Assembly: GCF_006517815.1 (NCBI RefSeq)
Contig: NZ_CP041198.1
Location: 2,356,001 to 2,420,000 of the forward strand
From: Pseudarthrobacter sp. NIBRBAC000502770
Lineage (GTDB): Bacteria; Actinomycetota; Actinomycetes; Actinomycetales; Micrococcaceae
DNA length: 64,000 nt
Direction of reading: 5' to 3'
The notes beneath the pieces were generated by a model that had not been told where the DNA came from, did not search any database, and saw only the letters and a list, made by a program, of their open reading frames with translations. Each line of letters starts with the position of its first letter. Position 1 is the first letter of the stretch. The translations under genes and the position numbers were made by a program. Positions 48,326-63,106 of this stretch are shown here, one piece after another.

Positions 48326-48367
48326 TGGAGCTAAGGAGATTCGAACTCCTGACCTCTTCGATGCGAA
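48326..48367 (-). tRNA. 3' half of a tRNA-Ala (CGC), an attachment-site remnant
   Basis: Read on the minus strand, 42 bases match the 3' part of tRNA-Ala: anticodon loop TTCGCAT, the 3' anticodon stem CGAAG, the variable loop, T-arm AGGAG/TTCGAAT/CTCCT, and acceptor strand TAGCTCC plus discriminator A. The expected 5' half is not at the higher coordinates; the sequence there (CTCCGGATAACGCGG) is unrelated. No CCA is encoded. With an integrase next to it, this is best read as the att duplicate left when an element inserted into a tRNA-Ala gene. Confidence 0.85.
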
Positions 48368-48564: not shown

Positions 48565-48795
48565 GTGAACAAGAACAATGAAACGACAGGTCTCGACCTG
48601 ACGGTCCCGGCGCGACTCCTGACTCGCAGCGAAGCTGCGCAATATCTTCGACGGTCCACGGGCACGCTGGCCAACTGGGCGGCCAAGCGCAAGGGACCTG
48701 TGTACTACCGACAAGAGGACGGTGCAGTGGTCTATGCCGTCGAGGACTTGGCAGAGTGGTTGGCCCTGCAGCGCGTACTCCCGGTGGTGGCATAG
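48565..48795 (+). CDS. Excisionase-like helix-turn-helix protein
   Basis: This 76-residue protein has a MerR/AlpA-like domain (LLTRSEAAQYLRRSTGTLANWAAKRKG, about residues 20-46) and a wing with YYRQEDGAVVYAVEDLAEWL. The family recruits or redirects integrases (Xis) or regulates the element's genes. The longer open frame from 48325 starts inside the tRNA fragment and is not credible. GTG 48565 gives a compact domain. Its stop overlaps the integrase start by one base (TAGTG), so the two are coupled. Confidence 0.8.
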   Translation: MNKNNETTGLDLTVPARLLTRSEAAQYLRRSTGTLANWAAKRKGPVYYRQEDGAVVYAVEDLAEWLALQRVLPVVA

Positions 48796-50108
48796 TGGCC
48801 AACTTTGCTACACCCCCAGGATCCTGGGGAAAGATTCCGCCAGCAAAGCTGGGAGCTGACGGACGTTGGAAGGCGAACGGTCGCTACAAGACGTTGGCCG
48901 GCGAATCGAAACAGCGGTTTCGGAGCGGTTCGACTGGCCGCAAGGCCGAGAACGCCCTTCTCGAGCTGTTCAAAGCGATGGCAGCCGAAGACAAAGCACA
49001 AGAAGAGGCCGCCGCGCAAGAGGTCAAGAAAAAGCGTCGACAGAAAGAAAACATCAAGTTTGCCGATGCTATTGAGGAGTGGATTTCGTATATCGAAATG
49101 GGCGGCAAGGACCTGAGGGTCAGCACGGCATACGAGTATGCGCGGATGGCGCGGACTGACATCATCCCAGCACTGGGCGAACTCCGGTTGCAGGATCTCG
49201 ACGTTCGGGCGTGTGCGGACTTCCTTCACGGAATCATCAACGGTGGCCGCTACTTCGCGAAGGCCGAACATAACCGTGCGGTGCTATCCAATATTTTGGA
49301 GTGGTGTGCCGGGAGGGGCCTGATCCCGGGTAATCCCGTGAAACAGGTCGCTGCGCTCCCTAAGCCCCGTAAGAAGCCGGTGCAAATCATCGAAAAGCAC
49401 GATATGGCGAGTGTTTTGAGGGCTGTTCGAAAACACGGCGAACATCAGCTGACAGTGAAACGTCCTGGGCCTCCCCCGAACATGGACATTCCTGACGGCA
49501 TCGAGCTCCTCCTCGCAACCGGGGTGCGCATCTCTGAGCTCCTGGCCCTCACGTGGAACGACGTCTGGATCGACGCCCCGGATGACGGTTCATATTGGGT
49601 CCAGATAAACGGTCAGGTCGGCTGCATCAAGGGTCAGGGGATGTTGCGCCACGACTACCGCAAGACGGGCGACAAAATTCTCGATCTGCGCATCAGTCCG
49701 GAGGTCGCGCGCATGCTCCGGGTTAGAAGAGCAAGTCAGTTGAAAACCAACCCAAAGCTGGCGATTTTTCCGGCGCGTGGTGGTGCCTGGATGCAGCAGA
49801 ATAACTTCCGCCGCAGGTGGCGCAAAGTCCGGGAAGAACTGGACATTACCTACGACATTCCTGAGGACGATGAGCGGGGCGGAAGGAAACAGGAGCGGCG
49901 GGAATCCTGTGCTGTTGAAGCCATAACCCCCCATACTTTTCGCCGCTCGGTTGGCACATTTATCGGAGAGACCGTTTCCATTGACCAGGCAGCGCAGCAA
50001 CTGGGACACAAGCGAACAGCGGTGACCATTCGGTCCTACCTTCGAGAGCGCCAAGAAGCTCCTGACAGCAGCGGTTACTTGGCGAGCGTGATGTACCGGC
50101 CTGGTTAA
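48795..50108 (+). CDS. Tyrosine-recombinase (phage-type) integrase
   Basis: This 437-residue site-specific recombinase has an N-terminal arm-binding region, a core-binding SAM-like domain (about residues 86-190) and the catalytic domain. The catalytic residues are Arg245 (ATGVRISELL), Lys290, His380-x-x-Arg383 (HTFRRS), His405 (LGHKR) and Tyr415 (IRSYLRER). All are present, so it should be active. It presumably integrates and excises the element at tRNA-Ala. The GTG at 48795 is chosen because it overlaps the excisionase stop. Confidence 0.9.
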   Translation: MANFATPPGSWGKIPPAKLGADGRWKANGRYKTLAGESKQRFRSGSTGRKAENALLELFKAMAAEDKAQEEAAAQEVKKKRRQKENIKFADAIEEWISYIEMGGKDLRVSTAYEYARMARTDIIPALGELRLQDLDVRACADFLHGIINGGRYFAKAEHNRAVLSNILEWCAGRGLIPGNPVKQVAALPKPRKKPVQIIEKHDMASVLRAVRKHGEHQLTVKRPGPPPNMDIPDGIELLLATGVRISELLALTWNDVWIDAPDDGSYWVQINGQVGCIKGQGMLRHDYRKTGDKILDLRISPEVARMLRVRRASQLKTNPKLAIFPARGGAWMQQNNFRRRWRKVREELDITYDIPEDDERGGRKQERRESCAVEAITPHTFRRSVGTFIGETVSIDQAAQQLGHKRTAVTIRSYLRERQEAPDSSGYLASVMYRPG

Positions 50109-52212: not shown

Positions 52213-52893
52213 TCATGCCAGGAGTGCCGGCGCCGGGCGCCGCGGCTCGACCTTCTCGACGAGCCGCCACGCCACCATGTCCAATGCCCGCAGCGGCGTC
52301 ACGGCCGGACCGTCGGCCGGGGCGAGCCGGGCAATGCCCTGCCAGTGCCGCAGTCCGGTCCTGAGATCGTCCTGGATCAGGGGCAGCCAATCGAGCATGA
52401 ACTGCCTGTTGCTCCTGCCCTTCGTGTGCGTCATCTTCGGTGTCCCAAGCTTTCCGTAGGCGCGCCAGATGTGGTCGTCGTACAGCGGTAACAGGCCGGG
52501 GCGCTTCAGGTGCAGGATCTTGGCCAGCTTCACGAGCTGCAGCTGCGGCGTGGATCGACCATCCAGCACCCCGAACAGGTCGGCGATGGCCGTCAACGTC
52601 TTTTCACCGGCCTCGTCCAAGGTGCCGGCGAGGTGTTCACTGCGCATAAGCGGGTTGATTACCGGGATCAGCGACAGGAAGGAGTATTGGGCGGTAAGGG
52701 CGTTCTGCCCGGCGTTCAACAGTCCGGCGGCCGCTGCGTCCTGCGGCCCAACTGTGTCCGGGTCACAGTTTCCGGGATAGCTGTCGTAGGCGGGATAAGA
52801 CCAGTTGCCGTAGTCGTTCATGTACTCCCGGGCCAGTGCCCGGGCGTCTTTGACGCTGATTTCCAGGCCGCCGATGGTGAGTTTCTCCGTCAT
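52213..52893 (-). CDS. DUF6308-like protein
   Basis: This 226-residue soluble protein begins MTEKLTIGGLEISVKDARALAREYM and has helical repeats with PLYDDHIWRAYGKLG near residue 140. It fits the actinobacterial family I know as DUF6308, of unknown function. The longer frame begins at 53013, but ATG 52893 lies 7 bases after TAGGCT (52906-52901), a leaderless layout. Base composition is like the chromosome. It may be a gene that was in the host before or was captured intact. Confidence 0.6.
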   Translation of the reverse strand: MTEKLTIGGLEISVKDARALAREYMNDYGNWSYPAYDSYPGNCDPDTVGPQDAAAAGLLNAGQNALTAQYSFLSLIPVINPLMRSEHLAGTLDEAGEKTLTAIADLFGVLDGRSTPQLQLVKLAKILHLKRPGLLPLYDDHIWRAYGKLGTPKMTHTKGRSNRQFMLDWLPLIQDDLRTGLRHWQGIARLAPADGPAVTPLRALDMVAWRLVEKVEPRRPAPALLA

Positions 52894-53079
52894 GCCCCTG
52901 AGCCTAGCGCCGCACATAAAGCATGAGCACCTCCATTGCCCACCAGCACCGCGCGCCGCGACCGGCCGCTTCACCGCCGTCACCCACCTTGAACCGGAGC
53001 TGGCGCTGGCCACTCACGGCAGCCGGAACACCGAACGGCCTTGGCGCAGCAGGTTGTCTGACCGAAAGCACCCTTTTTC

Positions 53080-53445: not shown

Positions 53446-53700
53446 AATGGGCGACCATGGGCAACGGATGGCGACCACCTGGTCGCCCATAAAAATCCGC
53501 GCCAGCACTGGGAAGGAGGCCCCTTTATATATATATGGCGACTTAACCAACCATTTAACTACTACTACACATAGGGATCCTTGTACTTCCCTGTTACATG
53601 CTTTCTCTCCTATAGGCATACTTCCCCGTGGTCGGTTTGGTCGCCATTTCCCCAAAACCCGCGCCAGCACTGGGAAGCAGGGGTGGTCATTGGGTCGGTC
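53446..53700. repeat. Non-coding block with GGCGACCA motifs and an AT-rich core
   Basis: TGGCGACCA or its complement occurs about four times (53,446-53,488 with one inverted pair GGCGACC-ACCT-GGTCGCC, GGCGAC near 53,536, and TTGGTCGCCA near 53,636). A second repeat, CGCGCCAGCACTGGGAAG, occurs near 53,499 and 53,660. Between them lies an AT-rich stretch (about 53,522-53,625) with ATATATATAT. Inverted and direct repeats around AT-rich DNA resemble a replication or transfer origin. The frame that crosses it has no protein-like features. Nothing else is recognised in 53,334-54,052. Confidence 0.5.
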
Positions 53701-54052
53701 AGTGGTCGGTCACGATGGCCATGGCCTTATTCGGGCGAAAACTGCGCACCAGGGCGCCGGCCGCACACAACAGGGCATGAGCAGCCACGCATTTAACCCC
53801 GCACAGCACCCCCGGTCCGGCGACGGCCCTTCACCCCCACCGCACTCGAACGCGTACGCTTCCTGGACGTCAATCGAGAGGCGGCCAGCCACCTGCCTGA
53901 AGCTGGACTTCGGCGGGACAGTTTCGGTCGCATTTCTCCCAATCGAGCAGCAGGATCGTAATGATGTTGCGCTGTCCCCCAGCCGGGCTCGAATCTGCCC
54001 AAACGAAGAATTGTGGTCTTCTTATCTAGCAGGTATGTTCGAAGTACATACT

Positions 54053-54372
54053 CACCCGGGTGGAACGCTGGAACGGACCAGCACGCACGGGACCTGCAGC
54101 CTCACGGCCCTACACCGCACACCTCACCCGGGCGGAAGACTGGAACCGACCAGCACGCACGGGACCTGCAGCCTCACGGCCCTACACCGCACACCTCACC
54201 CGGGCGGAAGACTGGAACCGACCAGCACGCACGGGACCTGCAGCCTCACGGCCCTACACCGCACACCTCACCCGGGCGGAAGACTGGAACCGACCAGCAC
54301 GCACGGGACCTGCAGCCTCACGGCCCTACACCGCACACCTCACCCGGGCGGAATACTCGAACCGACCAGCAT
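54053..54372. repeat. Tandem array of a 72-base unit (4 copies plus a partial)
   Basis: Units begin CACCCGGG at 54053, 54125, 54197, 54269 and 54341, so the period is exactly 72. Copies 2-4 look identical, copy 1 has a few changes, and the fifth stops after about 32 bases. The unit length is divisible by three and all three plus-strand frames stay open across it. There are no unique spacers, so it is not a CRISPR array. Each unit has CCCGGG and CTGCAG palindromes. Confidence 0.95.
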
Positions 54373-54591
54373 GACTCTAATTGCGGTTGGACTCCTCACA
54401 GGAGCTAATTGCTTCCGTCACCAGACTCACTGCAGCAGGCCCCGCGCCAGGTGGATCTGCCGGTTCGCGAGCCGGGCCCTTATTCCGCTTTGGTTCGGTG
54501 AAGCTGCCGGGCAGCGGGTTAGGTGCATGGCGGCATCTTTAGGCAAAACGCCAGCTCCTGGCCAGGCCATTGATGTGGGGGATGACCTCGT

Positions 54592-54762
54592 TCATGCCCT
54601 GCCGCCGTCGTGCCGCGCGACCCACTCGTCCATAGAGTGCGGGACCGGCGAGTTCTTGTTCAGCGCCTTGTGATCGTAGAAGCCGAGTCGCTCGGCGATC
54701 CGCGTGATCTGGTTGGGTCGCTCCTCGTGTTCAAGGACGATGCTGGCGCCGGCGCAGTGCAT
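54592..54762 (-). pseudogene. Short coding-like fragment
   Basis: On the minus strand, MHCAGASIVLEHEERPNQIT continues through RIAERLGFYDHKALNKNSPV to DEWVARHDGGRA and a stop, 56 codons with protein-like composition. The frame continues upstream to a stop near 54,822 without a good start. It is probably the C-terminal remnant of a larger gene of the element. I do not recognise the family. Confidence 0.35.
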
Positions 54763-56190: not shown

Positions 56191-56340
56191 TCGTATCGCC
56201 TCTTCTGGGGGCGATTAGCGGCGTTATTCCTAGGTAAGGCAGCTGGCACTCCTCTTGTTTGTGATCCTTAGTAGACTGCTCGCAACTTTAGAACGGCCAA
56301 GGGGTCAGCCCATGGTCAAATAGCAAAGTAGGTATTGGGG

Positions 56341-56898
56341 ATGCTGCGAAGGGCCGATAACGTCCGACTTGATCACCAGCGGGGCTTTTGGACCAGCAAT
56401 GGTGACGTGATTATCACCCTCGGCAAAAAGCGCTACACCATCGGCAAGGTCAAGGAAGAGGTTTTCCTTGAGCGTCAGCAGGCGCAGATGGGGTTCCCTA
56501 TGTTCATAGCTAACATCAACGGCCGCCGGTATTGGCACTTCAGAAACAGGTTCTATTGGGAGTCCGAGGGCCTAAACGCCAGCGAGGTTGAGGCGCTTTT
56601 GGTCTTGCGGGAACAACGCATGCAGCGACAACTCGACACAGCCCAAGCAGCACGTGCCATGAGGTATGCCCCGCGACTTGCCACAGGCCGTAAAGCTATC
56701 CCGGATGACGTGAAGGTATTCGTCATGCAGCGAGATGCAGGCTCCTGCCGCGCCTGCGGGGCTACAACTGAACTGCAGTTTGACCACATCATCCCGATCG
56801 CCATGGGCGGGAGCAATGAGGCCCAGAACCTGCAAATACTTTGCGGTCCATGCAATCGCTCCAAGTCGGCTGGGCTAACGGTGCGTCGACAGTTTTAG
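56341..56898 (+). CDS. HNH endonuclease
   Basis: This 185-residue protein has a novel N-terminal half (residues 1-115) and a C-terminal classical HNH domain. The Zn pairs are Cys136-x-x-Cys139 and Cys168-x-x-Cys171, the catalytic DHIIP begins at Asp148-His149, and AQNLQILC has Asn163. The domain should nick or cut DNA. The N-terminal half, with many aromatic residues (RRYWHFRNRFYWESEG), may give sequence binding. The ATG at 56341 is used; a TTG at 56335 is in frame. It could be a homing-type or defence nuclease. Confidence 0.85.
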   Translation: MLRRADNVRLDHQRGFWTSNGDVIITLGKKRYTIGKVKEEVFLERQQAQMGFPMFIANINGRRYWHFRNRFYWESEGLNASEVEALLVLREQRMQRQLDTAQAARAMRYAPRLATGRKAIPDDVKVFVMQRDAGSCRACGATTELQFDHIIPIAMGGSNEAQNLQILCGPCNRSKSAGLTVRRQF

Positions 56899-57324
56899 CG
56901 GACGCCAGTTCCTAATTCGACGAAAGGCAAATTTTTTATTGCGCTCACTATCCCGTAGGCCCTCCAACGCAGATCGCGGTGTCCAATACGGCCTGCCCGT
57001 CCTGACCCAGGAATGCCTGCCCCCTGCGGTCGTCCCACGTCTCATGCGCATTGTCTCGTAGACCCTTAAGGCTTAAATAAGACACTGCGGTGAGACGGAC
57101 TTTGCAAGACACGAATGGCGGTATCGCGGCATGGACGCAGACCCTTCCGAGGGTGTCGCCCTTAGGTATAGTTCACGAGACGCTAGGAATGATCTGCAAC
57201 TACCCGAGCTCGCGCATGTCGTACAGACGCGCCGGGACCCATAGCAGTGCGTTGCGGGCTCCCTTCTGCTGCCCCTGAGGCACGTTAAAGACGCCCAACG
57301 AGAATCTTCCGGTATGAATGGGTT
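56899..57324. other. Spacer of about 426 bases, no gene seen
   Basis: I see no credible coding frame in either strand. The stretch contains an AT-rich run (near 56,931), the 17-base motif described separately, and candidate promoter sequence for the EVE/HNH gene. Confidence 0.6.
57167..57183 (+). promoter_or_regulatory. Motif TATAGTTCACGAGACGC upstream of the EVE/HNH gene
   Basis: This 17-base sequence recurs with two changes at 61092-61108, upstream of the CoiA-like gene. TATAGT could be a -10 box and the rest an operator. It is 142 bases upstream of the start at 57325. Confidence 0.45.
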
Positions 57325-58284
57325 ATGACCAATTCGCTGAGGGACGCGGTATCGACTGTCCCGGTCGGTCCTGCCACAAATTTTTGGCGGGCATTCCAAT
57401 CTGAAAACTTCCGGCACGTCTTCCACGAAGGCACCTTGTGGGCCCCCCTGAAAGGCCACCGCGGGCAGAGCGTCCCCTCCTGGGACACGTTGCCTCATGT
57501 CCGGCCCGGAGACGTTGTACTAAATTTCGACAGGCCGGCGGTCCGGGGGATCAGCATCGTTGCCACGCGGCCGGTTCCTTCTTATCCTCCGCTGCGAGGG
57601 TACAAGGAGCCGGCGGGCACGAACGGCATTCTGGTGCTCACCGATCCTCTCTGCGAAGTACGGATCCCGCGGGAAGACGCTTACCGGGTTCTGCCGTGGG
57701 GCCAGGGCCCGGTCAACGCGAAAGGCGGGTCCAAAAATGGGTATGTATTCCGTCTCGACCGGGATGCCGCCCTGAAACTGCTAAGGCAGGCAGGGCTAGA
57801 AATCGGCGACGGCGGGGACGTAGAGCTGAGCGGGGCACGGCCTTCCGACCCCCAGCAATACAAGGGAGGTCCCAGCGACAAATGGACTCTCGCCGCTGTT
57901 CGGACCGAGCAACGCTACCTGAGGTGCCAGCAGCTGCAGCTGCATGGCAGCCACTGCTCCCTCTGCGGACATTCCTATCCGGAGGAATTCCTGGTGGCTG
58001 CCCATATCAAACCCCGGTCCAAATGCTCCGAGGCGGAGCGCATGGACATCCGCAATGTCTCCATGCTGGCTTGTTTGTTCGGATGCGATGCACTTTTTGA
58101 AAACGGCTACCTTGTCGTAGGCGCTGACGGGTCCTTGCGTGCCGGCAAGCCGGGGCGCGGCCAGGTTTGGTACCATGCCGAGGAGCTCCTCGGCCGCATG
58201 TGCATTGCACATAACGAACGATCGCAGGGTTATTTCGCCTGGCATCGGGAGCACCACCTGGCCGACGTAGCCGACCAGCGCTAA
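57325..58284 (+). CDS. EVE-like/HNH protein, candidate modification-dependent restriction endonuclease
   Basis: This 319-residue protein has an N-terminal PUA/EVE-like domain (about residues 18-120: NFWRAFQSENFRHVFHEGTLWAP then VRPGDVVLNFDRP) that in relatives reads modified bases. The C-terminal HNH_2-type nuclease has Cys211-x-x-Cys214, VAAHIKPRSKCSEAERMDIRNVSM, and CDALFENGYLVV, the usual lid. This architecture is known in enzymes that cut modified, usually phage, DNA. The ATG at 57325 lies 6 bases after TATGAA (57313-57318), so leaderless expression is likely. It stands alone, as type IV-like restriction genes often do. Confidence 0.8.
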   Translation: MTNSLRDAVSTVPVGPATNFWRAFQSENFRHVFHEGTLWAPLKGHRGQSVPSWDTLPHVRPGDVVLNFDRPAVRGISIVATRPVPSYPPLRGYKEPAGTNGILVLTDPLCEVRIPREDAYRVLPWGQGPVNAKGGSKNGYVFRLDRDAALKLLRQAGLEIGDGGDVELSGARPSDPQQYKGGPSDKWTLAAVRTEQRYLRCQQLQLHGSHCSLCGHSYPEEFLVAAHIKPRSKCSEAERMDIRNVSMLACLFGCDALFENGYLVVGADGSLRAGKPGRGQVWYHAEELLGRMCIAHNERSQGYFAWHREHHLADVADQR

Positions 58285-58495
58285 GTCTCGCAGATCCAAC
58301 CGAGGGCCACCGACAACGACGTCGGGCTTGTCTCCCTTGCGAAGCCGTTCTGGATCGAGCCCTTAATGGTCGAGTAAGTCGATCATGCTCTCCCGACACG
58401 CTCTACCCGAGGTTCTGTGGAGTTCACGTGTCTCGCCTGGCTGGGTGCCGTCCCTGCAGCGGCGAAGATTAGTCGAATGTCGGTGACGGTCCAAT

Positions 58496-58537
58496 AGTGA
58501 GCCACTAGACGCCAAGCCCGCGAAATGGCTCACTTTT
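58496..58537 (+). terminator. Intrinsic terminator after the EVE/HNH gene
   Basis: AGTGAGCCA (58496-58504) pairs with TGGCTCACT (58526-58534), followed by a T-run. The long loop has 21 bases. The rest of 58,285-58,651 holds no gene I can support. Confidence 0.6.
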
Positions 58538-58651
58538 CGACCAGACAGTCGAAGGAGGCAAATGCCTTGGATGGCTCCGTGCATGTATCAGGCCGCTCAG
58601 TTTAGGCCCCTCCGTCCACGAAAATCAGGGAAGCCGGACTTGAGCTCGAGC

Positions 58652-59911
58652 TCAGTTGTCCTCATACCGGTCAAAGACCGGTCGCAGCGCATACTGTCGG
58701 ATATGCTGCTGAATCTCTGATAACCCCGCTTGGTCGTAGAGCACATTTAGACGAGCCCGTGTCTCTGCTAGTCGCTGCCGCAATTCGCTTGTCATCGGGT
58801 CGTCCGGTTCAGTTCCGGCTTCATCCCGAGCAATCATGTGATTGCGCTGTCTGACGACTTCGGCTTCAAGTGCACGAATCTCCGCGTGCAGCGCTTGTAA
58901 CCTTTCTGAGGAGGCCCGGATGGCGGCCTCAAAAGGAAGGGAAACACGGGCTTGCGGATCGCGCGTCAGGTTGTACGCCGCCGGGGATAGCCACTCTGCG
59001 TAGCTGGAATTCGCCTCGTTCTGTGTCTCAGCGCGTTGCTGCGCGACGTCCTCTAGCTCCTCCCTCGCGGATAGGATTCTTTCGTGGCTGGCGACGGACT
59101 GGACATGACTTGCTGCGTAGTTGAAGAAGGACAGGCCGTTGTAGATGTGGATGGACCTACCGCGTGAATGTTCTCGAAACTCTTTGATCAGTTCAGGCCG
59201 GGGCATAATTTGTTTGCCTTGAGCGGAAACCCACCAGTCCTCTTTGGCGTCCTCAGTCACGAGAATTATGTCTAGCTCATGCTCCTTGGCGTAATCCAAA
59301 ACCTGCCGCCAGAAAACGAAGTCACCGTACTTACGGGTGCCCTCTTTGGCTTGGTCTTTGTACCCGGGCGGAATCTCTTGGGCAAAACGGACGGCTCCCT
59401 CTTTATAAAGCTTCTCCAGGTCATCCGGCGACGGCTCGTCTCCAACCTTTCCCTCATACAGTTCTGTGATTTTCTCTAGAACTGCGTCTTCGGCGGACGG
59501 TCCGTTGCGGTCGGCTAGCTTTGCGCTTTCTTCTCGGAGCTCATCAAGAAGATCTTTAGCTGCAGCCAGGAGTGCCTTGTGCTTGTCGCCGGCAGTAAGG
59601 TGTGACTTCCGGGGCGACTGGCTAATCGCGTTGACGAGTCTTTCAATGTGATTGATCTGCTCTTTATGAGTTGCGTTGGTTTCGGACCGAACAGCTAAGC
59701 GGTTCTCGTGGTATTCGTGGGCCGCTTGGAACGGTAGCCACAGTCGCTCTTGAAAGGCGGAAGCCAGCTCTAAGTATGTGGCAGAGGTGGTTGCCTCATA
59801 TCTATGGAAGTCCAACAGGACATTTGCATCAAAGACTATGGTGGCTGTGTTCCAGAGACCCTGCAGCTCCTCGGCTGATGGCCTGTAGAAGCCTCTGAAT
59901 TTGTCCCGCAT
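58652..59911 (-). CDS. PIN_8 (DUF4935-type) domain protein
   Basis: This 419-residue protein has an N-terminal PIN-like nuclease domain (about residues 20-260). The acidic site residues appear as VFDANVLLD (Asp28), AAHEYHENRLAV, KYGDFVFWRQVLDYA and IILVTEDAKEDWW. The C-terminal 150 residues are helical with many Glu/Arg, probably coiled coil. PIN_8 proteins are often found in defence islands and are likely RNases, but a defence role is inferred. AGGAGC lies 8 bases before the ATG at 59911. It converges with the EVE/HNH gene. Confidence 0.82.
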   Translation of the reverse strand: MRDKFRGFYRPSAEELQGLWNTATIVFDANVLLDFHRYEATTSATYLELASAFQERLWLPFQAAHEYHENRLAVRSETNATHKEQINHIERLVNAISQSPRKSHLTAGDKHKALLAAAKDLLDELREESAKLADRNGPSAEDAVLEKITELYEGKVGDEPSPDDLEKLYKEGAVRFAQEIPPGYKDQAKEGTRKYGDFVFWRQVLDYAKEHELDIILVTEDAKEDWWVSAQGKQIMPRPELIKEFREHSRGRSIHIYNGLSFFNYAASHVQSVASHERILSAREELEDVAQQRAETQNEANSSYAEWLSPAAYNLTRDPQARVSLPFEAAIRASSERLQALHAEIRALEAEVVRQRNHMIARDEAGTEPDDPMTSELRQRLAETRARLNVLYDQAGLSEIQQHIRQYALRPVFDRYEDN

Positions 59912-60074
59912 ACGATCGAGCTCCTGAAATTGCTCCTGACTGAATCCCTCCGCATCCTATGGCCCGCCGAAGCTTTCGACATGCTCACCACGCGGGCGCT
60001 GGCTGGGCGCTTTTGCTATGGGGTGTCATTGTCGCATTGGGTTGTATCCCCTCAACGAAGTGAACCCCGGCGCG

Positions 60075-60653
60075 GGATCTTTCCGTCACTGTCAGCTACG
60101 AGGAGCTCCAGGCCATCATCGCTGACGACCGCAACTGGGCAATGGCGGAGGGCGCTCAACTCCGTCCAGGGGATCTACCTCATCGCCTGCGTCAGCAAGC
60201 GCAGGCTGCATGTGGGGAAAGCCGACGGCACAGAACCTTCCGGTACTGCGCTTCGGTGGCGCAGGGGCCAAACACCGTGTCCGGATCCAGGGGTCGCCTT
60301 GCTTCCCGGCGGCTATGCTGGCCGTGACCATGTCCACCACTTCGTCGTATCGGCTGGCCGGGGCCAGGATGCGGGTGGAGATGTAGCAGGTCCGCCCGGT
60401 GTTCCGCGTGGAAGACTTGATCAGCACCCGCGACATGGCGGCCTGGGTCTCCGGAGGGAGTATGCCAAGAACGGCCATGGTGGCAACGTCGCCCTCCGGG
60501 AGCTGGCAGCTGCCGATGACCGGCACCGGCAACACTTCCAGTTCAGCATCCTGCAATTCTTCTCGCCAAGTGCGCCGGCCGCAGGTCGACGCCGCCGAAA
60601 CCCACTACAAGAGGGCTCTACTTACACGGCAGTTCGGCATGGAGCTGAACTGA
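60075..60653 (+). pseudogene. Broken GIY-YIG nuclease-domain gene
   Basis: Three pieces of one GIY-YIG protein are visible. The first (LSVTVSYEELQAIIADDRNW) is in one frame, and ALNSVQGIYLIACVSKRRL with HVGKADG is in another after a frameshift near 60,138. The second half, EYAKNGHGGNVALRELAAAD to FQFSIL, resumes near 60,456 after an insert of about 190 bases. A final piece, VDAAETHYKRALLTRQFG, is in a third frame. The insert (60,256-60,455) is aldehyde-dehydrogenase debris on the opposite strand. The gene is dead. Confidence 0.75.
60256..60455 (-). pseudogene. Aldehyde dehydrogenase fragment inserted in the GIY-YIG gene
   Basis: Read on the minus strand, QAAMSRVLIKSSTRNTGRTC continues to YISTRILAPASRYDEVVDMV and IAAGKQGDP, an internal stretch of an NAD-dependent aldehyde dehydrogenase. 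It includes the region around the catalytic Cys (NTGRTCYIS). A one-base deletion then breaks the frame, since the next codons would read LDPDTVFGPCAT. Only about 65 codons remain. No transposase, inverted repeat or clear target duplication is visible at the edges. Confidence 0.7.
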
Positions 60654-61207
60654 CGGTTTCAAGTACTGGTGGTTCCTGCTGCTTGATCCATCTGGTTTCC
60701 CACCGCTCGTATGGCTCCGCGGTCATGGACATGGTTCTCTGCGGGTCGCTGAGAATGCTGGTGGTTAGGGATTGCGACTTGCCAGTCTGGCCCTCCCGTA
60801 CGGACTGGCGTCCAGTCATCGACAGACCCCGGCGTCGCATGCCAACCGGTGGAGAATGCGACATTGGCCAGACCTTCGCAGAACCATTGGACAAAAACGG
60901 TGTCCTGCTGTGAGCGTAGTCGGCAACTGGGTCGGTGGGAGAGTGCGTGGCTGCATGTCATGACTGCCACATTTTTGGGAGTCCGGGTTGCCTCGAAGGA
61001 ACGTGAGACAACAACTCGTACCGAGGTGTTGAGACGTTTCCAAACAGGGAAAGGAGGAGACAGAAGACGTAAGAGTCCTAGTGTTATTACCTATAGTTCG
61101 TGAGACGCCGCAACTGGACCCGGGCTGCCTGTTGCCAGACACGCGGGGTCGTGTGATGGAATCCTCGTGAAGGGCCAGAATGGCTGGCCATTGGACCTGG
61201 GGGATCC
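60654..61207. other. Spacer of about 550 bases, no gene seen
   Basis: No frame here has protein-like composition. The last 210 bases hold repeated GTGAGAC-type words and the shared TATAGTTC motif upstream of the CoiA-like gene. Confidence 0.6.
61092..61108 (+). promoter_or_regulatory. Motif TATAGTTCGTGAGACGC upstream of the CoiA-like gene
   Basis: Same 17-base motif as at 57167-57183 with two differences (GT for AC). It is 100-116 bases upstream of the start at 61208. Confidence 0.45.
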
Positions 61208-62629
61208 ATGGGCCTTGTGGCAATTCTTGACGGTGCGCGAGTCGATGCTTCCGAGTATTCGGCCGCGGCCTGGGCGGCATTGAAAGAGTCGGAGGATGCG
61301 AAACGGGTAGTGATGCCACTGTGCGGCATCAGAGCCATCGCCAAGTCGCGAGGTGAAACCTTTTTCTTCGCCCACTACCGGACCTCCGAGTGCAAGGTGG
61401 ACCACGGCGGCGAGTCCCCGCAGCACATCGCCATGAAGACGGCACTTCGGGACCGCATCAACGCGATCGACGGGTGGCATGCGCTGGTCGAGTATCCGCA
61501 CCCGTCGAGGGAATGGATCATCGATGTCCTGGCCGAGTCCGACGACAAGCGGCGTCGCATTGCCTTCGAGGTGCAGCTCTCCTCCCAGACCCCCGAGAGA
61601 TACCAGCAGCGGAGCCAGCGGTATTTCAACGATCGCGTGTTCCCGATGTGGATCATCCCTCGTCGACTCGAATACAACCGAACCCACATTCCAGCCGTCG
61701 TTACCGGCTTCGGGAAGAGCTCAGCCGTCCCGGAGGACCCCACCGACCTGATGACCCTCGACATCCGCTGCGACTTCCGGGAGGAAGACACCCTCGGCGA
61801 CCTGGTCGACAATCTGCTCCGTCGTGGTCACCGATGGGCCTATGGAAGCCCGGATGACCAGGCGGCCCGGCACAAGCGTGAGGAAGAGTACGAGGCCCGT
61901 CTGCGGGAAGAGGAGCGGCTACGGCAGGAGGCCCTGAATGCGCGTATCGAGGAGATGAACAACAACAGCGCCTCGCCCGAGGCGGCATTCGGAGTCCACA
62001 CTGTTTTCACGGAAGATGGTCCGTTCGTCTGGGCAACCCTCACTCAATGCTGGAGCTGCGAGCACCCGATGTTGCTCTGGAACGCGGACTCAGCCAGGGC
62101 CGGTGTGCAGTATTCCTCTCCCCCTGCCTTGGAGATTCGGCGAGAAGTCGGCGCAAAGCGCTACGAGAACCATCCGGACGTCCATAAGGTCCTCAACAAG
62201 TGGATGCGCGAGACCCGGGCTGACGTGGAGAAGGCCAAGATCCAAGTCCGGCGCAGCAAGATGAAGGGCGCTGACTACAGTGCCTTCGTCTGTCCGCAAT
62301 GCGATGCGCTGATCGGCCAGATGTTCATCTCATGCCTACGAACGGAAAAGTGGTCGCTCGTCAGCGCCCCACTCCTGAAGAAGAAGGGCGTGGCGGCGCG
62401 GCCGGCCGCGGGCGAGGCTGGCCACTTCGACCCCAGGCGAGGAAAGCCGCGAAAGCAACGTCTGGCCGCCGTCCCGCTTGAACCGCGCATCCACCCGCCG
62501 CGTCCTACAGTGCCGGAAGAACTGCAAACAGACCGCAAGAAGACCTGGGAGGAGCTCCACTCCCCCGACGGCATCGCCGAAGCGAGGCGCAGGTTCATGG
62601 GGACGAGCAGCCCGTACCGCGGGAACTGA
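61208..62629 (+). CDS. CoiA-like nuclease with zinc-ribbon-type C-terminus
   Basis: This 473-residue protein resembles competence protein CoiA. HYRTSECKVDHGGESPQHIAMK precedes a PD-(D/E)xK-type core in WIIDVLAESDDKRRRIAFEVQLSSQTPERY (Asp, Glu and Gln in order). A charged coiled-coil region (residues about 215-258) follows, then two Cys pairs (CWSCEHP and CPQCDALIG) that could hold zinc. The tail is Arg/Pro-rich. The ATG has GGGGG about 4 bases upstream. CoiA itself acts in transformation. Stand-alone versions in mobile islands may instead act on foreign DNA, which is inference. Confidence 0.78.
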   Translation: MGLVAILDGARVDASEYSAAAWAALKESEDAKRVVMPLCGIRAIAKSRGETFFFAHYRTSECKVDHGGESPQHIAMKTALRDRINAIDGWHALVEYPHPSREWIIDVLAESDDKRRRIAFEVQLSSQTPERYQQRSQRYFNDRVFPMWIIPRRLEYNRTHIPAVVTGFGKSSAVPEDPTDLMTLDIRCDFREEDTLGDLVDNLLRRGHRWAYGSPDDQAARHKREEEYEARLREEERLRQEALNARIEEMNNNSASPEAAFGVHTVFTEDGPFVWATLTQCWSCEHPMLLWNADSARAGVQYSSPPALEIRREVGAKRYENHPDVHKVLNKWMRETRADVEKAKIQVRRSKMKGADYSAFVCPQCDALIGQMFISCLRTEKWSLVSAPLLKKKGVAARPAAGEAGHFDPRRGKPRKQRLAAVPLEPRIHPPRPTVPEELQTDRKKTWEELHSPDGIAEARRRFMGTSSPYRGN

Positions 62630-62696: not shown

Positions 62697-62735
62697 ATGC
62701 GCTTTGTTTCCCGGAATGATCCGGTCCTCGTATGA
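62697..62735 (+). CDS. Possible 12-residue leader peptide coupled to the STAS-like gene
   Basis: ATG 62697 lies 6 bases after TAAGTT (62685-62690), the leaderless layout used elsewhere in the window. It opens MRFVSRNDPVLV and stops at TGA 62733-62735, overlapping the next ATG as ATGA. The downstream gene has no ribosome-binding site, so coupling is plausible. Confidence 0.4.
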   Translation: MRFVSRNDPVLV

Positions 62736-63106
62736 GCGCCCACGTCGAAGTCGCCGGTGGCAAGGCGATTCTGACCCTTCGCCCGGACGGGATCCTGCAG
62801 CTCGTCTGGGCACCGGGCGCGTACGTTGATGAGGACGACGCCGTCTCAGCCGTCACCATGATGAACCAGGTCAGCCCGGACCATGACCGGCCGCTGCTGG
62901 TCGATATGCGGAACATTGGGAACACCTCGACGCGGGCCAGGGATGTTTTCGTGCGTCCGCATGCGGTTTCACGGGTGGCTCTGCTCGGCGAATCCCCTGT
63001 GGACGAGGTGATCGCCAGCTTCTTCACGGGCGTCCGCCAGCCCCAACGCCCCACCCGATACTTCACGTCTGAGGCCAAAGCGCTGAGCTGGCTGTCCGGC
63101 GGCTGA
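62732..63106 (+). CDS. STAS/SpoIIAA-like domain protein
   Basis: This 124-residue protein has an alternating strand/helix pattern with RPLLVDMRNIGNTSTRARDVFV and RVALLGESPVDEVIASFFTG, like the small STAS-like (DUF7793-type) proteins frequent in Arthrobacter next to signalling genes. No phosphorylatable Ser can be assigned with confidence. It may act as a regulatory partner of the membrane sensor that follows after 136 bases. It is expressed through a possible leader peptide. Confidence 0.65.
   Translation: MSAHVEVAGGKAILTLRPDGILQLVWAPGAYVDEDDAVSAVTMMNQVSPDHDRPLLVDMRNIGNTSTRARDVFVRPHAVSRVALLGESPVDEVIASFFTGVRQPQRPTRYFTSEAKALSWLSGG

Follow-up and report, generated by a model that had tools for sequence, protein, structure and literature searches.

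The present study examined a 64,000-nucleotide stretch of the genome of Pseudarthrobacter sp. NIBRBAC000502770 (contig NZ_CP041198.1, positions 2,356,001 to 2,420,000; hereafter, the window) and, in particular, the interval at window positions 57325-62629, which encodes three predicted nucleases: an EVE-HNH endonuclease, a PIN_8 protein, and a CoiA-like protein. We consider it reasonably probable that this interval is part of the defence cargo region of an island integrated at a tRNA-Ala gene, and that its nucleases are independent single-gene functions, not one multi-gene system. The three intact nuclease genes are probably virus defences. The EVE-HNH gene, the PIN_8 gene, and the relic of a uzuA gene are ordinary parts of this region, and the interesting part is the CoiA-like family, a likely stand-alone defence nuclease whose partners recur. 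Sequence features, active-site conservation, island anatomy, and gene linkage were observed directly, and all of the nuclease functions at this locus are inferred.

The nuclease interval and its island

A preliminary description of the window had proposed three predicted nucleases of different folds within 5.3 kb of an island with defence-like surroundings. The coordinates, Pfam matches, and island anatomy agree with this proposal. All three reading frames are open over the coordinates originally assigned to them, and codon statistics from a simple home-made gene caller gave coding scores of 32.3 for EVE-HNH, 66.0 for PIN_8, and 104.7 for the CoiA-like gene. No NCBIfam profile matched any of the three proteins at E<=0.1.

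The left boundary of the island is marked by a 28-bp repeat at 48326-48353 on the minus strand, which resembles an att site and copies the 3' end of tRNA-Ala(CGC). A search allowing up to 3 mismatches found two copies of the 28-bp pattern in the genome, both exact; the second is located 75.4 kb downstream, inside the intact tRNA-Ala(cgc). Core synteny with all five relatives compared ends at 47.7 kb, and tRNA-Ala(cgc) lies beyond the synteny break in each of them. The left att-like copy is followed by the gene for a tyrosine-recombinase type integrase (48795-50108, plus strand; Phage_integrase E 7.4e-14, Phage_int_M 9.3e-8), and the nuclease interval is near the integrase end. Based on the repeat pair, the integrase, and the synteny break, we place the nuclease interval 9 to 14 kb into an island of 75 kb, the far end of which is outside the window.

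A single three-gene system was considered and rejected. A PIN_8 gene was found within 5 kb of a CoiA-like gene at 1 of 46 CoiA-like loci in the genus, namely, the window itself. Since CoiA-like genes recur beside EVE-HNH or UzuA genes and PIN_8 is linked to them only here, the three nucleases do not form one system. The preliminary description had assigned none of the genes to a named multi-gene system; it overlooked the uzuA (Uzume) relic and the affinity of EVE-HNH to a known kind of type IV restriction enzyme.

The CoiA-like protein

The CoiA-like gene (61208-62629, plus strand) encodes a predicted PD-EXQ nuclease with zinc-type Cys/His sets at both its N- and C-terminal sides. The protein matched Pfam CoiA_nuc (PF06054) with 29.7 bits against a cut-off of 20.3, and the CoiA_N model gave 13.7 bits, below its cut-off of 26.3. 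E69, D106, E121-x-Q123, R135, and R138 were present in all 25 aligned sequences. The added zinc pairs noted in the preliminary description were borne out: C39/H56/C62/H66 and C281/C284/C362/C365 were kept in 22 to 25 of the 25 sequences, and both sets may bind zinc. The structure comparison, which covered residues 67-211, identified a restriction-nuclease-like fold in the predicted model over this range, with matches to Can2, Hjc, and restriction enzymes. We consider DNA cleavage as a stand-alone defence nuclease to be the most likely role of the CoiA-like protein; two putative zinc sites, one on either side of its PD-EXQ core, would recognize the DNA or its ends.

CoiA proteins are described as competence factors with a PD-EXQ site and a conserved Arg, and their molecular role was unclear in 2005, according to Kosinski (2005). 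The CoiA-like protein of the window shares with competence CoiA (PF06054) the nuclease-like domain, the PD-EXQ site, and the conserved Arg. However, it differs in its long C-terminal part with a four-Cys set, and its gene is accessory and located in islands, away from ComEC in the genomes tested. ComEC (PF03772), the sole competence gene examined, was not near the CoiA-like gene in 14 genomes: in 8 of them, the two genes shared a contig but were separated by over 100 kb, and in the other 6 they were on different contigs. Location mainly in core competence loci, which had been named as evidence against a defence role, was thus not what we found in these genomes, and the CoiA-like gene occurred in only 39 of 206 genomes. 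An accessory CoiA branch in defence islands, away from ComEC, provides a compact hypothesis for a second role of CoiA.

The CoiA-like gene was previously put forward as a candidate for an undescribed single-gene defence or element-maintenance function. We retain it as a candidate for defence; however, the idea is not wholly new because a CoiA-domain protein belongs to the defence systems that were selected experimentally in an E. coli screen, which lists the CoiA domain among domains never before reported in phage defence (Vassallo 2022, PMC9519451). The likeness to that protein, compared by description only, is the CoiA domain. PADLOC holds systems from that screen, such as PD-Lambda-1, yet no model of PADLOC-DB 2.0.0 matched the CoiA-like protein of the window at E<=1. 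No publication connecting CoiA with Arthrobacter and a nuclease was found in the open-licence literature searched, and in further papers examined for CoiA together with defence, the word was an author's name in the reference list. We tentatively propose, as a possibility that falls somewhat short of probable, that the CoiA-like proteins of Arthrobacter constitute a family of single-gene anti-phage nucleases not described before, with a PD-EXQ core and two zinc modules, which are encoded on islands and plasmids, work alone, and are repeatedly stacked beside UzuA or EVE-HNH. If so, the CoiA-like nuclease would stand beside a second, modification- or structure-sensing nuclease, such that phages escaping one would be cut by the other. 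The gene would also add a candidate to the defence genes of Actinobacteria.

A phage origin was rejected: the viral contigs searched contained a single, distant CoiA-family locus, and the phage records searched contained no PIN_8 match; relatives of EVE-HNH do occur in viral loci. We also looked in the island for a relic of a second CoiA gene, since a divergent partner would be expected beside this EVE-HNH clade. A search with the protein of genome G025 returned the known gene as its sole real match.

Regarding the upstream region, three elements are located 20-60 nt ahead of the start codon in several CoiA-like loci, such as L113: a box GTGRTNRAATC, a GC-rich palindrome of varying sequence, and a GGGGG run. 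The three elements occurred together in 12 of 32 upstream stretches, these 12 having been chosen for holding GTGRTNRAATC, and L138 of the same branch is without the box. The promoter-like box suggests that these coiA-like genes may have their own promoter. A hairpin in the 5' leader before coiA-like was discarded as weak, with fold z values of -1.84 to 1.03; the summed stem length of 67 compared with a shuffle mean of 58.6 and was reached in 68 of 2000 shuffles. The pattern TATAGTTC[AG][CT]GAGACGC occurs at 57167-57183 and 61092-61108, which are its only two exact sites in the window; the first is approximately 141 bp ahead of the EVE-HNH gene, and the second approximately 99 bp ahead of the CoiA-like gene. 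Among 255 loci, it was found only in stretches of the same genome and in no locus from another genome. The pattern was drawn from its own two sites, and we report it as a curiosity only.

Distribution and pairing in the genus

We surveyed 206 genomes of the genus at E<=1e-3, with fragments included. Matches to the CoiA-like protein were found in 39 genomes, to UzuA-type proteins in 52, to EVE-HNH in 29, and to PIN_8 in 44 (7 at E<1e-20). These were merged into 46 CoiA-like, 61 UzuA, 32 EVE-HNH, and 7 PIN_8 loci, the last from strong rows only, with 40 of 47 PIN_8 rows (E above 1e-4) left out of the linkage analysis.

Pairs within 5 kb exceeded the numbers expected under uniform placement. There were 6 CoiA-UzuA pairs versus 0.076 expected (17 genomes with both), 6 CoiA-EVE pairs versus 0.038 (9 genomes), 2 UzuA-EVE pairs versus 0.021 (6 genomes), and 1 CoiA-PIN_8 pair versus 0.010 (2 genomes). 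A UzuA or EVE-HNH partner was present at 11 of the 46 CoiA-like loci and lacking at 35, and the window belongs to both sets of pairs. Some partner genes are broken or partial, namely, UzuA in G000 and G035 and EVE-HNH in G117 and G133:C11. Furthermore, several pairs represent one event. A region of 11.3 kb is 99.9% identical between G025 and G133:C22, and within that region G172 and G117 have 2.9 and 1.9 kb in common with G025, at approximately 95% identity. Between G019:C88 and the UzuA pair of G117, identity is 98% across 2.5 kb. Counting lineages by eye, we estimate about four or five CoiA-UzuA associations and three CoiA-EVE associations, with the window in both.

The DNA shared between CoiA-like loci can extend little beyond the gene pair. 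In L046 and L048, the common DNA amounts to 2.5 kb, covering the CoiA-like gene, uzuA, and the first part of the following gene, with a further 0.2 kb elsewhere. In L045 and L180, it amounts to 2.9 kb, covering EVE-HNH, the CoiA-like gene, and a HAD gene, with a further 1.1 and 0.2 kb. Besides the window's own gene, four EVE-HNH matches are 73-75% identical to it, and all four are within 0.25 kb of a CoiA-like gene, as opposed to 1 of 27 more distant EVE-HNH loci. The CoiA-like gene of the window belongs to the UzuA-linked branch (73% identity to G130 and 34% to G025). Since its EVE-HNH gene comes from the CoiA-linked clade and its CoiA-like gene from the UzuA-linked branch, the window appears to be a mosaic of two pairings. 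CoiA-like genes travel with UzuA or EVE-HNH in several lineages, which may reflect either nucleases that complement each other or islands that gather defence genes. Separately, in a genome with no CoiA-like match, partial UzuA and partial EVE-HNH matches were 0.6 kb apart (G018:C1:3545700-3546951).

The neighbours of CoiA-like loci are rich in PADLOC defence models, an enrichment that the preliminary description had named as support for a defence role. The 150 genes nearest 26 CoiA-like loci, five of which are the window's own, matched 61 PADLOC families at E<=1e-10, a total of overlapping families and not a gene count. The 142 genes at 20 other places, which were arbitrary and mostly core, matched 5 families, the 12 member matches being mainly to mad3 and mad8. 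The count was confined to the nearest 150 genes of 100 to 1300 aa, and left out L171 and L192 (near-copies), L193 (a near-copy of L045), and L187 and L188 (no CoiA gene called). Among the 25 families displayed were UzuA (3 genes), PD-Lambda-1, AbiTii, HEC-05, RecD-like, and DISARM/BREX-type helicases. Pfam also revealed a weak NACHT match, below the cut-off, in two loci, a DUF4379 protein with a weak restriction endonuclease match, and DUF4062. A ResIII and N6_N4 methylase pair resembling a type III restriction-modification system adjoins the CoiA-like gene of Zafaria, itself called in three pieces. Several close neighbours are ordinary metabolic genes or have no Pfam match. In another genome, L168 (5971-14149) is a compact, dense defence cluster that comprises a weak-NACHT protein, a CoiA-like protein, PD-Lambda-1, a small gene, and UzuA.

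The EVE-HNH endonuclease, the PIN_8 protein, and the uzuA relic

The EVE-HNH gene (57325-58284, plus strand) encodes a whole-length relative of VcaM4I (PDB 6yex) in which the catalytic residues are kept. Profile searches, as suggested in the preliminary description, gave Pfam matches for the CoiA, HNH, and PIN_8 domains; the HNH_2 match was marginal (21.3 bits, cut-off 21), and the EVE domain, with no match to Pfam EVE, was recognized by comparison with VcaM4I. A 30-sequence profile matched residues 18-312 of VcaM4I (E 2.3e-35), and the single sequence also matched with a residue alignment (E 3.8e-12). In Foldseek, the AlphaFold model (mean predicted local distance difference test score 87.2, predicted template modelling score 0.82) matched 6yex (E 1.7e-17) ahead of PH1033-type and YTH domains. 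Its template modelling score against 6yex was low, at 0.40, as may be expected if the two domains are placed differently. Both the profile and Foldseek gave the order EVE (PUA-type) then HNH, the same as in VcaM4I.

The reported active-site residues of VcaM4I, H224, N241, D250, and D254, align with H227, N244, D255, and E259, the same residue being present in 29, 23, 29, and 28 of 30 aligned sequences, respectively. P24 and Y130 of the VcaM4I base pocket align with P41 and Y140, and W82 is opposite a gap. The proteins differ in that identity in the structural alignment is approximately 20%, and the HNH domain of the window protein has an additional C211/C214/C250/C254 set, which is kept in 29-30 of 30 sequences of its group and is likely a zinc site. 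PADLOC yielded generic HNH and restriction endonuclease matches (best 5.3e-7). A second copy, 52% identical, is located 1.9 Mb away in the same genome, and relatives with 26-41% identity occur in 13 viral loci. Judging from this analysis, the EVE-HNH protein most likely acts as a restriction enzyme of type IV, a known kind that depends on modified cytosine. By analogy with the mechanism demonstrated for VcaM4I, the EVE domain would flip out a modified cytosine of incoming DNA and an HNH dimer would cut.

The PIN_8 gene (58652-59911, minus strand; PIN_8 E 2.2e-57, PIN_12 2.1e-9) encodes a probable stand-alone RNase that also matches phrog_9788 over residues 1-305 (E 4.8e-59). No PADLOC model matched this protein at E<=1, and no PIN_8 match was found in 50,697 phage records. 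Plasmid PIN_8 or PIN-like proteins have the PIN_8 domain in common with it; relatives were found on 58 of 72,556 plasmid records, with 23-33% identity in the 30 listed, and three of the plasmids are 4-6 kb in size. It differs in having few close relatives in the genus (the 7 of 206 genomes mentioned above). The protein is most likely an RNase, which would act possibly in an abortive manner.

The intervals between these genes had been described as debris. The debris is real, and we identified it as a decayed uzuA gene and a scrap of an aldehyde-dehydrogenase gene. The relic of the uzuA (Uzume) GIY-YIG nuclease gene (60049-60650, plus strand) was detected by tblastn with 280-aa relatives in four pieces (60049-60132, 60137-60235, 60458-60583, and 60582-60650) that match residues 148-208 and 216-280 of a relative, i.e., the C-terminal half. 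Identity was 93-95% over 42 residues in the third piece and 87% in the fourth. The relic is broken by an in-frame stop, frame changes, and an insertion, and the aldehyde-dehydrogenase scrap (60265-60436, minus strand; Aldedh E 2.3e-5; blastn matches to Rhodococcus plasmid genes) lies inside it. An intact 280-aa relative matched PADLOC UzuA over residues 8-280 (E 1.5e-91), and in other genomes, genes for intact 280-aa GIY-YIG proteins lie end to end with a CoiA-like gene. The relic resembles Uzume through its 93% identity over 42 residues to a protein that matches UzuA, but differs in that the gene is broken and half missing, with no intact protein. The first description of Uzume is reportedly that of Millman and colleagues in 2022. 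PMC10482375 counts Uzume as one of the Actinobacteria-enriched systems whose mechanism is unknown. At the window locus, uzuA is a fourth defence gene that is now dead, and its relic shows the turnover of defence genes within one island.

Alternative explanations

The CoiA-like protein may serve mobile elements, by helping to process, recombine, or establish island or plasmid DNA that enters the cell, and not immunity. Streptococcus CoiA has been implicated in DNA uptake and recombination, according to Kosinski (2005). CoiA-family matches were found on 34 of 72,556 plasmid records, 13 predicted to be conjugative, all at less than 60% identity, and a 54% relative is carried by a conjugative Arthrobacter plasmid. 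However, the neighbours of CoiA-like loci match defence models and the family is nearly absent from viral contigs (the one distant locus). We regard a mobile-element role as unlikely, though worth keeping in mind. A true two-component system, in which the CoiA-like protein acts with a nearby UzuA or EVE-HNH and the window is a rearranged, half-broken mosaic, appears improbable. The arrangement of the pairs speaks for it: coiA-like and uzuA lie end to end in G019:C88, G117, and G028, where their ends overlap, EVE-HNH is divergent at 187-190 bp in G025, G133:C22, and G172, with a fragment at 215 bp in G117, and the EVE-HNH clade closest to that of the window always adjoins CoiA-like genes, unlike the more distant loci. 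Nevertheless, most CoiA-like loci (35 of 46) are without either partner within 5 kb, no CoiA-like match was found within 5 kb of 55 of 61 UzuA and 26 of 32 EVE-HNH loci, and the close EVE-HNH cases are one recent lineage (approximately 95-99.9% DNA identity).

The cluster may also be a graveyard of decaying genes with no present function. The broken uzuA with its inserted scrap and the long inter-gene stretches without a called gene fit this picture, but the three main frames are full length with coding-like codon use, and the catalytic residues of the CoiA-like and EVE-HNH proteins are kept. A graveyard is very improbable in our view, and stand-alone defence nucleases within an island remain our preferred reading.

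Other features of the island

A small HNH endonuclease gene (56335-56898, plus strand; Pfam HNH_5 2.9e-11, HNH 5.5e-11) is located just upstream of the nuclease interval. On the other side is a DUF7793 gene (62732-63106, plus strand; E 1.3e-20), which we regard as a flank outside the nuclease system. This gene and the next, a kinase gene, have 78% DNA identity to a 20-kb stretch of G009 that has no match to the nuclease region. The two genes adjoin a SnoaL gene in G009, and the SnoaL gene is outside the left island boundary here. Since neighbours in G009 are split by this boundary, the region has also been rearranged.

The island further contains a DUF6308 gene (52213-53013; E 2.3e-32) and a reading frame at 53447-54673 in which a unit of some 24 codons (THGTCSLTALHRTPHPGGRLEPTS) is present in about four tandem copies; this frame is probably a DNA repeat rather than a protein. 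An inverted repeat at 58488-58542 has 17-nt arms 21 nt apart and includes the greater part of a 42-bp sequence that is also present, without differences, on an Arthrobacter plasmid. The plasmid copy of this sequence is separated by 112 bp from a gene for an IS30 transposase and has an Abi-family gene in its vicinity; the inverted repeat is perhaps an IS30 relic.

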